A stretch of DNA of 22,183 nt, from positions 1-22,183 of the IMG/VR virus record IMGVR_UViG_3300031857_001552. One strand, written 5' to 3'. The position numbers were made by a program, and so were the translations under genes. Origin of the DNA: a virus. Shown in pieces: positions 14,597 through 17,501 of the stretch. How positions within the stretch are numbered: position 1 is the first letter of the stretch; each line of letters starts with the position of its first letter. The notes under the pieces were generated by a model. The model saw nothing but the letters and a program-made list of their open reading frames with translations. It was not told where the DNA came from and did not search any database.

Positions 14597-14929
14597 ATGA
14601 AAACATTCATAATCACAATCGAAATCGAACACACCGACCGTCAATTCAATTCTTATCCGGTGCAAACATTCATTGCGGAAATTGGTTCACCAGCTGCAAA
14701 TTGGGTCAAAACAATGAAAAAAGCATTTCGGGAAACAACATTGGGTGAAAAAGCCGAATCGATAACCGTTGAATATGCGATCCGCGAACAAACAAACCAT
14801 GTCCGAATTGTCATGGGCAATGTAAACAACATTGACAAATGGCGCGTGTATGTCAATCAGGAATTGAAATTTGAATCCGAAAATTACACACACGCATTGG
14901 CAATCGCACAATACTACAAACAACAATGA
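14597..14929 (+). CDS. Hypothetical protein, 110 aa
   Basis: The protein starts with a beta strand (MKTFIITIEIEH), then SPAANWVKTMKKAFRE, further strands (AESITVEYAIRE, HVRIVMGNV, WRVYVNQEL) and a final helix (YTHALAIAQYYKQQ). It looks like a compact alpha/beta protein, but I do not recognise the family. Its stop overlaps the DnaB start (ATGA, 14926-14929), so it is probably translated with the helicase. Confidence 0.45.
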   Translation: MKTFIITIEIEHTDRQFNSYPVQTFIAEIGSPAANWVKTMKKAFRETTLGEKAESITVEYAIREQTNHVRIVMGNVNNIDKWRVYVNQELKFESENYTHALAIAQYYKQQ

Positions 14930-16164
14930 CGAACGAAGAATATATCATCAGTCAATTAGCGTTTTATTCTGAATTGCATCATCATTTGCCAAAGATTCAA
15001 TCAAAATGGTTTACAAATAAATCATTGGGCAAAATAGTTAAAGCGATGCGCATTGTCTATGAATCAGGCGAAACCGTCAACCCGTTCACCATTCGGAAAT
15101 ATTTGGATCGAGCGGAAACAATATTGGCCGCGCAATTATCGGCCGCATGTTCGGGATTGCCATCAATCAAAAATCAGGTCATCGAACTACAATACAATTT
15201 TGTTTTAAACAATATCAAAAACCGGGTCATTGGTTTGAATTTTGACGGTGGGTTGATTGAAGCAAAGGCGCAATTGCAATCAATTATTGATGAAGCACAA
15301 ATTGACATTGGCCATGAGCCGAAAGACATCAACGCCGTTTCCAAAGATGTCATGACCAACATTGTCGATGCAATGTCGCGCGGCAACCAGTTGACCGGAA
15401 AACCATCAGGTTGGCGCAAACTTGACAAAGCGATTGGAGGTTACAACGCCGGTGACATGATTGTTGTGGCCGGTCGCCCCGGAATGGGAAAGACGGCAAT
15501 TGCATTGACATTCGCCCATGATTTCGCGTTGCGTAATGGCCGCGCATTGTTCCTATCATTGGAGATGTCAAACGAACAATTGGCCAAACGCTATGTATCA
15601 CTCATTGGTGAAATACCAAATGGACGCATTCGTAATCATTCATTGTACAAAGAAGAAATCGACAATGTTCAACAATTCCTAAATACACCACCGATGACAT
15701 TCCACATTGATGACGATCCGGATAATTCATTGCAAATGATTCGTGGCAAATGCAAATTGCATAAGGCAAAACACGGATTGGATTTGATTATCATTGATTA
15801 CATTCAGTTGATTCGAGTAAACAAAAGCCATTCGCGTGAACAAGAAATCGCAGAGATTTCACGCGGGTTGAAGTTGATGGCAAAGGAATTGAAATGCACC
15901 GTGATGATATTGGCGCAGTTATCACGCAAACCCGAAGAACGCGCAGACAAACGCCCATTGTTATCAGATTTGAGGGAATCAGGTGCAATCGAACAAGATG
16001 CGGATGTTGTGTTGTTTCCGTTCCGTCCGGCCTATTATGACAAAGAACAACCGCCAATTGAACAAGCCGAATTGATTATCGCAAAGAATAGGCATGGGGA
16101 ATCCGGGGTGATTGATGCGACATTCGATGGCAAGTTAACGAAGTACACGGAGATAAAAACATGA
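14926..16164 (+). CDS. Replicative DNA helicase, DnaB family, 412 aa
   Basis: The protein has a short N-terminal helical domain (1-100), a linker and a RecA-type motor: Walker A GRPGMGKT (183-190), catalytic-Glu strand ALFLSLEMSNEQL, Walker B LIIIDYIQL (287-295), Gln loop LAQLSRKPEER (329-339), LRESGAIEQDAD (349-360) and the arginine-finger region KNRHGESG (387-394). These are all hallmarks of DnaB helicases, which unwind DNA 5'-3' at the fork and recruit primase. At 412 aa it is slightly shorter than bacterial DnaB, as usual in phages. It follows the loader-like gene in one operon and overlaps the methyltransferase start (ATGA 16161-16164). Confidence 0.93.
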   Translation: MTNEEYIISQLAFYSELHHHLPKIQSKWFTNKSLGKIVKAMRIVYESGETVNPFTIRKYLDRAETILAAQLSAACSGLPSIKNQVIELQYNFVLNNIKNRVIGLNFDGGLIEAKAQLQSIIDEAQIDIGHEPKDINAVSKDVMTNIVDAMSRGNQLTGKPSGWRKLDKAIGGYNAGDMIVVAGRPGMGKTAIALTFAHDFALRNGRALFLSLEMSNEQLAKRYVSLIGEIPNGRIRNHSLYKEEIDNVQQFLNTPPMTFHIDDDPDNSLQMIRGKCKLHKAKHGLDLIIIDYIQLIRVNKSHSREQEIAEISRGLKLMAKELKCTVMILAQLSRKPEERADKRPLLSDLRESGAIEQDADVVLFPFRPAYYDKEQPPIEQAELIIAKNRHGESGVIDATFDGKLTKYTEIKT

Positions 16165-17177
16165 GGCACGGATCGTTATTTAGCGGAATAGGCGGGTTTG
16201 ACCTTGCATCAGAATGGATGGGGTGGGAAAATGTTTTCCATTGTGAATGGAATCCGTTTGGGCAAAAAGTATTGAAACATTATTGGCCAAAGGCCGAATC
16301 ATTTGAAGACATAACAAAATCAGATTTCACAAAATATGCAAACAAAATTGACATTCTCACAGGAGGATTCCCATGCCAACCATACTCCCAGGCAGGGCAA
16401 CGCAAAGGCAAAGAAGATGAACGCCATTTATGGCCACAAATGTTACGAGCAATACAAGAGATTAAACCAAAGTACATCGTGGGGGAAAATGTTTTTGGGT
16501 TGCTTAATTGGAATGGAGGGATGGTATTCGACGAGGTGCATTCTGACTTGGAATCTGCGGGGTACGAAGTCCAGGCCGTGGTTATACCTGCGGCGGCGGT
16601 CAATGCCCCACACGGACGAGATAGAGTATGGTTCGTTGCTACCAACACCCAATTCAAGTCCGAGGGAAGTGACGGAGGAACAAACGATGAAACGCAAAGA
16701 AACATACGGAGGGGAAACGAGGGCGATGTACTTGGAACATTACGCAGTGATGGGATTATTACCGACACCAACGGCATCAGCAATTGGGGAAAGTCAAAGC
16801 AATCACCAGCTGCACATAAGCAAGGACGGAGTAGCAAAACCAATACGGGAATCGGGAATGAAGGGGAACAGCAATTTATACGCGACATTGCAAGTGAGGG
16901 GGATGCTACCAACACCAACGGCCCAGGAGGGGCAAAAGATAACGGGATTGGAAAATCAGGATTTAATGACCAAACGAGTTCGGCAAATAGTTGGGACAAC
17001 TTCCCAACTCAATCCCCGATTTGTGGGGGAGATGATGGGCTTCCCACCGAATTGGACGGAATTACCTTTTCAAAGTGGCGAGCAGAATCAATAAAAGCAT
17101 ACGGTAATGCCATCGTTCCACAGGTTGCATTGGAGATATTCAAAGCCATTGAACGCGTTGACAATGAGATGTTGTAA
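16161..17177 (+). CDS. C5-cytosine DNA methyltransferase, 338 aa
   Basis: SAM-binding motif I FSGIGGFD (7-14), catalytic motif IV GGFPCQPYSQAGQ with Cys72, motif VI GEN (108-110), motif VIII GRDRVWFV (152-159) and motif X KAYGNAIVPQ (312-321) are present, so it should methylate cytosine C5, possibly to protect phage DNA. Residues 161-300, where the target recognition domain and motif IX should be, are instead low-complexity and rich in Gly, Asn, Thr and Asp (e.g. TNTNGPGGAKDNGIGKSG). Motif IX-like sequence lies in another frame of the same DNA. The start overlaps DnaB; a promoter for the next gene lies directly after its stop. Target sequence unknown. Confidence 0.85.
   Translation: MRHGSLFSGIGGFDLASEWMGWENVFHCEWNPFGQKVLKHYWPKAESFEDITKSDFTKYANKIDILTGGFPCQPYSQAGQRKGKEDERHLWPQMLRAIQEIKPKYIVGENVFGLLNWNGGMVFDEVHSDLESAGYEVQAVVIPAAAVNAPHGRDRVWFVATNTQFKSEGSDGGTNDETQRNIRRGNEGDVLGTLRSDGIITDTNGISNWGKSKQSPAAHKQGRSSKTNTGIGNEGEQQFIRDIASEGDATNTNGPGGAKDNGIGKSGFNDQTSSANSWDNFPTQSPICGGDDGLPTELDGITFSKWRAESIKAYGNAIVPQVALEIFKAIERVDNEML
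16633..17094 (+). other. Second-frame methyltransferase recognition region with motif IX (possible overprinted or frameshifted coding)
   Basis: In frame +1 relative to the methyltransferase, the DNA encodes three similar phrases, SLLPTPNSS (16633-16659), GLLPTPTAS (16753-16779) and MLPTPTAQEG (16903-16932), and then LNPRFVGEMMGFPPNWTELPF (17008-17070). The last phrase has the form of C5-methyltransferase motif IX ('R-x-x-x-x-x-x-G-F/Y-P'). The stop at 17092-17094 comes about 22 codons' distance after GFP, exactly where motif X (GNAIVPQ) begins in the main frame. The open frame extends upstream to 16336, but there it is only a shadow of the main frame. Confidence 0.5.
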
Positions 17178-17210: not shown

Positions 17211-17501
17211 ATGCCGACATTCCCATCAAAGAAGATTCAGAACAAAGAAGTTCACACGGCGCATCGTCATCGTGAACCACGGTATCACACAACCGCATGG
17301 CGCGCGTTGCGTCAATCGATATTGCGTGACGAACCTTTGTGTCGTCAATGTCGTGACAATGGCATCATCAATGTTGCGCAAATGGTCGACCATATCAATC
17401 CCGTTCGATTGGGTGGATCGTTCCATGATGTCGACAACTTGCAACCATTGTGCAATTCATGTCATGCGGTGAAGTCAGGCAAGGAATCAAAACAATTCTA
17501 A
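17211..17501 (+). CDS. HNH endonuclease, 96 aa
   Basis: A small HNH protein with metal-binding Cys pairs C44-x2-C47 and C81-x2-C84, the DHI motif (60-62), Asn76 and HNH-type end LQPLCNSCHAVKSG (78-90). The N-terminus is basic (HTAHRHREPRYHTTAWRALRQ). Short HNH enzymes directly upstream of terminase genes are typical of phages with HK97-like packaging, where they assist the large terminase in cutting concatemers. Position next to the terminase and separate promoter support that role. Confidence 0.9.
   Translation: MPTFPSKKIQNKEVHTAHRHREPRYHTTAWRALRQSILRDEPLCRQCRDNGIINVAQMVDHINPVRLGGSFHDVDNLQPLCNSCHAVKSGKESKQF

Follow-up and report, generated by a model that had tools for sequence, protein, structure and literature searches.

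How is a C5-methyltransferase made from a locus in which one reading frame carries motifs I–VIII and X and a second, overlapping frame carries motif IX? The locus lies in a window of 22,183 nucleotides, the whole stretch of DNA analysed here. We refer to the main-frame open reading frame (ORF) as alpha and to the +1-frame ORF nested in it as beta. Their features are as follows.

16161..17177, + strand: alpha ORF, C5-methyltransferase with motifs I–VIII and X; 338 amino acids; matches to PF00145, phrog_363 and M.HhaI.
16362..16382, + strand: motif IV, GGFPCQP with Cys72, read from the sequence; G68–P74 invariant in alignment A2.
16513..17094, + strand: beta ORF, lying within alpha in the +1 frame, with an N-terminal part, three LPTP modules and motif IX; 193 amino acids from ATG 16513, a candidate start.
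16513..16635, + strand: beta N-terminal part, WYSTRCxLTWKL..., overlapping the motif VIII region of alpha; both frames constrained.
16636..16755, + strand: beta module 1, LLPTPNSSPREV..., 40 amino acids, cluster 0; 39 copies in 95 parsed loci, first or second in the array.
16756..16902, + strand: beta module 2, LLPTPTASAIGE..., 49 amino acids, cluster 3; 11 copies, first, second or fourth in the array.
16903..17007, + strand: beta module 3, MLPTPTAQEGQK..., 35 amino acids, cluster 1; 36 copies, last in the array every time (36 of 36).
17008..17091, + strand: motif IX of beta, LNPRFVGEMMGFPPNWTELPF, with a tail; MMGFP and a number of neighbouring residues do not vary in alignment A1 (62 rows).
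16641..17000, + strand: alpha frame of the module stretch, read as a low-complexity linker from the substitution pattern and the avoidance of alpha stops.
17103..17120, + strand: motif X, GNAIVP, in the alpha frame only; third-position variation resumes right after the beta stop.

Upstream, a gene that resembles a DnaB-type replicative helicase by sequence reading (14926–16164) overlaps the start of the methyltransferase gene by 4 bases. Directly downstream is an HNH endonuclease gene (17211–17501; phrog_144, E 6e-25), possibly for a homing or packaging nuclease.

Alpha has the hallmarks of a catalytic subunit. PF00145 matches its residues 1 to 331 (E 8e-49, 167 bits with a cut-off of 22), and the alpha family profile matches M.HhaI (E 3e-29) over profile positions 3–170 of 330, the part that holds motifs I–VIII. 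An earlier note on this DNA, made from the letters alone, had described a main frame that is open throughout, with its motifs in frame and a Gly/Asn/Thr/Asp stretch where a recognition domain belongs. This description holds: GGFPCQP, ENV and GNAIVP all lie in frame within the open 16161–17177, and alpha residues 160–280 are rich in Gly, Asn, Thr and Asp. We take GGFPCQP to be motif IV, with Cys72 as the catalytic residue, and GNAIVP to be motif X. Across the 65 rows of alignment A2, GGFPCQP and ENV are invariant, as in the catalytic domain of PF00145 C5 DNA methyltransferases, and so are G315, N316, A317 and P320 in the motif X region. Alpha departs from the usual monomeric form of these enzymes, in that motif IX was not seen in the alpha frame and lies in the +1 frame, outside the alpha chain.

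The +1-frame ORF (16336–17094) carries LLPTPN, LLPTPT and MLPTPT, the three LPTP phrases that the note had reported, followed by the motif IX-type sequence QLNPRFVGEMMGFPPNWTELPF. Its stop codon (17092–17094) falls 8 bases ahead of GNA (17103), and the distance from the GGC of GFP (17038) to the GGT of GNA is 65 nucleotides, the latter as described earlier. Searched separately, as had been suggested, the two frames match different methyltransferase families: the main frame matches phrog_363 (DNA methyltransferase, E 9e-73) and the +1 frame matches phrog_1008, also named DNA methyltransferase (E 5e-11 for 16627–17091 and 8e-16 for 16513–17091). This difference supports a reading in two subunits.

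We propose that the locus very probably encodes a two-subunit C5-methyltransferase of the M.EcoHK31I kind, with catalysis in alpha and with recognition and motif IX in beta. Alpha would be translated from 16161, fold into the AdoMet-binding and catalytic domain (motifs I–VIII) and continue across a tolerant linker to motif X, which it would also supply. Beta would be translated separately, probably by internal initiation near 16513, and would supply the small domain, consisting of the N-terminal segment, the tandem LPTP modules and motif IX. The modules presumably read the DNA target, and one target per module is a guess. Motif IX of beta would dock the small domain on alpha in a predicted alpha–beta association, and the phage may use the enzyme to shield its own DNA against host restriction.

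The layout recurs widely. Scans of virus contigs with main-frame and +1-frame queries returned at least 597 and 491 relatives, respectively; the best 80 of each, together with the window (L001), form a set of 161 virus loci, not all of them distinct. The +1 relative sits in relative frame +1 in all 161. In an HMM test of motif frames, an alpha with motif X and a nested +1 motif IX were found in 158 of the 161, a count that includes three loci with an interrupted alpha (L110, L119 and L133). The other three are L130, in which alpha is stopped before motif X, and L140 and L157, in which the N-terminal part of alpha is missing from the sequence used. The same layout is present in 71 of the 80 best loci, out of 86, from genome contigs, which are mostly Bacteroidota by title. 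Both nested ORFs are annotated in the GenBank records of Paenibacillus phage Bloom and E. coli phage K1G, the inner ORF of the latter being called Mte8-like. Compensating sequencing or assembly errors that shifted the middle of the gene, a possibility raised by the earlier note, are contradicted by this recurrence in virus and genome loci and by the annotation of both ORFs in named phages. The window is an IMG/VR virus record and probably metagenomic; we found no point that supports such an artefact and give it practically no credence.

More distant relatives show further arrangements. Among 17 phage records that were hand-picked for diversity (not at random), with layouts read from the frames, ten are nested (L162, L163, L164, L165, L166, L170, L171, L173, L176 and L177). 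Three are split (L169, L174 and L175): their alpha stops beyond motif VIII and the +1 ORF continues. Two (L167 and L168) encode one chain, with the LPTP modules and motifs IX and X all in a single frame, and two encode ordinary enzymes without LPTP modules (L172 and L178). The layout HMM scored only 5 of the 17 as nested because it was built on relatives of the window and misses distant members. With the inner ORF of K1G as query, matches were found in 226 phage records and in 14 plasmid records, none of the latter with 80% coverage. A second group of short methyltransferases (L305–L321, L323–L330 and L335) has an alpha frame that ends like MDDGVAARVDRLKAIGNGQVP.

Could the +1 frame be open by chance? 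We compared 100 distinct alpha genes, comprising the window, 73 genes that the main-frame query retrieved and 26 that came from the +1 query; 10 of them have an aligned start other than ATG. In every one, the +1 frame has no stop between alpha codon 118 and the end of motif IX (73 of 73, 26 of 26 and the window), and the recognition-region modules and motif IX that the earlier note had placed there are thus conserved. Under random synonymous recoding of the window alpha, the +1 frame stays open with P = 0.006 (mean of 4.45 stops); calculated gene by gene, the mean is 0.0067 (about 0.7%) and the maximum 0.048. The reverse recoding, with beta synonyms, leaves alpha open in 0.16% of trials. As controls, neither the +1 frame over alpha codons 1–118 nor the +2 frame over the beta region is open in any gene (0 of 100 each).

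The pattern of substitutions changes along the gene in step with the two frames. In a codon-position profile of 557 gene pairs, which are not independent of each other, differences up to about alpha residue 120 fall mainly at alpha third positions. From about residue 120 to the beta stop, alpha first positions, which are the wobble positions of beta, gain variation. Over the modules and motif IX, first-position variation mostly exceeds third; in blocks 141–160 and 301–310, alpha third positions still lead. Most third positions of alpha residues 283–302 hardly vary, and the first positions there do. After the beta stop, alpha third-position variation returns. Constraint on the beta frame thus precedes the LPTP stretch and starts near alpha codon 121.

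Substitution ratios from 39 independent pairs agree with this profile. In DNA read only in the alpha frame (residues 5–110), the ratio for changes that are synonymous in alpha and non-synonymous in beta (a-syn/b-NON) is 0.305, compared with 0.046 for the opposite class (a-NON/b-syn). The corresponding values are 0.175 and 0.090 where beta overlaps motif VIII (alpha residues 122–157), which indicates that both frames are constrained there, and 0.102 and 0.181 in the motif IX region. Within the modules the values are 0.040 and 0.332 for 81 pairs from beta-based clusters. In a repeat count with 50 module pairs picked by nucleotide identity alone, to avoid the beta-based clusters (module parsing unchanged), they are 0.015 and 0.201, and the differences at beta codon positions 1, 2 and 3 number 59, 31 and 282. 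Changes that are silent in beta and create a stop in alpha were observed once in the modules, compared with about 24 expected (121 opportunities × 0.20). The substitution pattern and the avoided stops indicate that the modules evolve as beta protein, with alpha there as a linker that is kept open to reach motif X.

Judged by these ratios, purifying selection on the beta frame is at least as strong as that in alpha-only DNA; and, on the evidence of the alignments, conservation and constraint are seen in both frames, with motif IX found only in beta and motif X only in alpha. These results refute a second frame due to chance, which the earlier note had named among the outcomes that would undo its reading. 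They do not bear out its suggestion that overprinting gave the main frame a new recognition domain, as the alpha amino acids in the modules change about as freely as silent sites. It is also extremely unlikely that protein is made from the main frame only, with the likeness in the +1 frame left over from an ancestral frame or arising as a side effect of constraint on the main frame. Alpha alone does give a PF00145 match along almost its whole length; against this stand the strength of purifying selection on beta and the open +1 frame in 100 of 100 genes, compared with 0.67% expected. The locus and its relatives provide a natural example, on a large scale, of gene overlap with constraint on one frame and, for the other, no more than the need to remain open.

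How beta would be translated bears on a further alternative. ATG 16513 is present in 62 of the 100 genes, ATG 16489 in 68 and neither in 17, and in 8 genes no ATG, GTG or TTG occurs between codons −9 and +2 of 16513. A single conserved start codon for beta was rejected: ATG 16489, ATG 16513, GTG and TTG were checked in the 100 genes and none is universal. The beta profile found no relative among PDB sequences (the sole match, E 1.6, is irrelevant), and AlphaFold2 (AF2) gave no confident model of beta alone (pLDDT 49, pTM 0.18). The lack of a universal start, the poor model and the lack of a PDB sequence relative all count against the two-subunit reading. A programmed +1 frameshift near motif VIII would need no beta start, and would yield a second chain that joins motifs I–VIII to the recognition region and motif IX, possibly shifting back to motif X. 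The spacing from motif IX to motif X (65 nucleotides) suits a single chain, all 100 genes have an open +1 frame between alpha codon 118 and the end of motif IX, and single-chain relatives give examples of such a design. However, constraint on beta sets in near alpha codon 121, before a shift would be of use, and a shift after motif VIII would bypass these constrained residues, which makes recoding less likely than two subunits. Split relatives also stand against it, among them Mycobacterium phage Artemis2UCLA (L174), in which gp90 and gp89 are two separately annotated overlapping genes. We consider the frameshift, and with it the earlier proposal of recoding into two enzyme forms, unlikely.

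Loci with a damaged alpha also count against two subunits: alpha is interrupted in L110, L133 and L119, and stopped just before motif X in L130. The stop in L130 is a TAA at 2567, in FPT*SPICGG, ahead of motif X, where beta is open. In L119, a frame change within 1503–2400 breaks alpha between residues 29 and 70 and beta is intact. In L110 (1613–1632) and L133 (1727–1746), motif IV is split precisely between GGFP and its catalytic Cys by an insertion of six bases, TTAACY in form, and an in-frame TAA results. A scan for TTAACY-type patterns found 38 virus contigs, 27 with the pattern in unrelated frames and 11 with it in methyltransferase motif IV (L350, L352, L356, L357, L359, L364, L367, L375, L377, L379 and L386, with L110 and L133 lying on contigs L359 and L377, respectively). 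Alpha continues in frame past the inserted stop in 10 of these 11, and soon stops in L367. The insertion may have arisen more than once, because L364 and L379 look like divergent enzymes by sequence; silencing, recoding and a mobile scar are candidate explanations.

Relatives in actinophages suggest what beta does. They have modules of the window type and motif IX in one chain with motif X. The chain of Mycobacterium phage Rita runs from motifs I–VIII through LPTP modules and RLAPAFSEWMMGWPAGW (motif IX) to GNGVVPQQ (motif X), and its residues 196–388 match phrog_1008 (E 2e-61), the family of the window beta. We read beta as the probable recognition subunit; its role in DNA recognition is inferred from position and motif order. 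Virus contigs hold further single-chain forms (L259–L274, L277 and L290) as well as split forms, and the existence of single-chain relatives makes an ancestral single frame plausible. The AF2 model of one of them, L261 (pLDDT 78, pTM 0.79), superimposes on M.HhaI over model range 1–372 (Z 21.0, r.m.s.d. 3.2 Å, 239 aligned residues). Block means are 66–98 for residues 246–330, which include the second LPTP module (from residue 245) and motif IX (from 317); confidence is low for the first module (from residue 220) and the stretch that precedes it, with residues 181–236 under 50. Beta could instead be a real protein with another job, such as a regulator, as might fit the want of a PDB relative by sequence and of a confident model. 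This is very unlikely, given that beta-type modules and motif IX fill the motif VIII–X half of single-chain methyltransferases and that alpha has no visible motif IX.

Beta arrays could be parsed in 95 of the 100 loci (the motif IX pattern missed the other five) and contain 261 modules, with a median of 40 amino acids and 1–6 modules per array. The modules form 69 clusters at 50% identity, and the window array is [0-3-1]. Counting all clusters, 21 of the 69 occur at two or more array positions, and last modules come from 25 different clusters. Modules from one cluster recur in several arrays and at several positions, and beta is, by its module content, a mosaic. Recent exchange between distant lineages has little direct support: among 131 module pairs with at least 92% nucleotide identity (from the 85–98.5% range), 5 lie in alphas that are less than 80% identical over codons 1–117, so such exchange is seen in a minority. 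The modules are tandem and mosaic, and the reading of a target by each, as in multispecific phage C5-methyltransferases, is putative. We hold only tentatively, at a little under an even chance, that the overprinted frame is a cassette library of DNA-target readers, in which each LPTP module would specify one methylation target and recombination would re-mix modules while both frames stay open, hiding the phage DNA from changing host restriction enzymes. Should single modules prove to be target readers, matching module content to methylomes could serve to decode the natural arrays, and the probable two-part enzyme would be one with targets that can be re-mixed between phages.

Several of the records lack one or both ORFs. 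Only alpha is annotated in L163, L166, L173 and L177; L176 has beta alone, labelled a hypothetical protein; and L165 and L171 have neither ORF. Databases may thus be without the recognition subunit for many phage methyltransferases. In PHROG, alpha falls in phrog_363 and beta in phrog_1008, listed as separate families, and the entries as printed give no indication that one locus encodes both in two frames. We found nested LPTP arrays described neither in the accessible parts of PMC3404938, PMC3439449, PMC9409062, PMC6070908 and PMC5582158 nor in a wider literature search, which mostly did not extend to subscription papers and is no proof of novelty.

Several known enzymes share parts of this design. 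The multispecific C5-methyltransferases of Bacillus subtilis phages, among them SPR and phi3T, carry several recognition domains of about 40 amino acids in tandem. The window locus resembles them in having several tandem modules of about 40 amino acids in a phage enzyme. They are built as one chain in one frame, whereas the window modules are of the LPTP type and lie in a nested second frame; modules and catalytic domain share one chain in relatives such as L167 and L261, and not in the window. The small polypeptide of M.EcoHK31I is encoded within the large one in another frame, and M.EaeI is likewise a two-polypeptide C5-methyltransferase. The nesting of M.EcoHK31I is matched here by beta (16513–17094), which lies inside 16161–17177 in the +1 frame.

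In PMC3404938, M.AquI is described as a split C5-methyltransferase whose small subunit has motifs IX and X. The window locus is similar in that one methyltransferase is predicted to be divided over two polypeptides, and differs from the AquI type in that motif X stays in alpha; gp90/gp89 of Artemis2UCLA is closer to M.AquI than to the nested layout. The same paper describes M.EcoHK31I as two polypeptides, the larger with motifs I–VIII, motif X and a predicted recognition domain and the smaller with motif IX. The window has the same division, known here from reading frames: motifs I–VIII and X on the large frame and motif IX on the small. Unlike M.EcoHK31I, as described there with its predicted recognition domain in the large subunit, the window has its modules in beta, and the corresponding stretch of alpha is unconstrained. 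Beta of the window type is, moreover, a mosaic array of 1–6 modules, and the two systems are likened by frame layout and published description. The layout resembles that of M.EcoHK31I with a variable recognition array in beta, and we therefore regard the locus as a variant of the known two-subunit enzymes: the nested two-subunit layout is of a known kind, and what may be new is a beta that forms a mosaic array of modules in an overprinted frame, with specificity re-assorted by cassette exchange.
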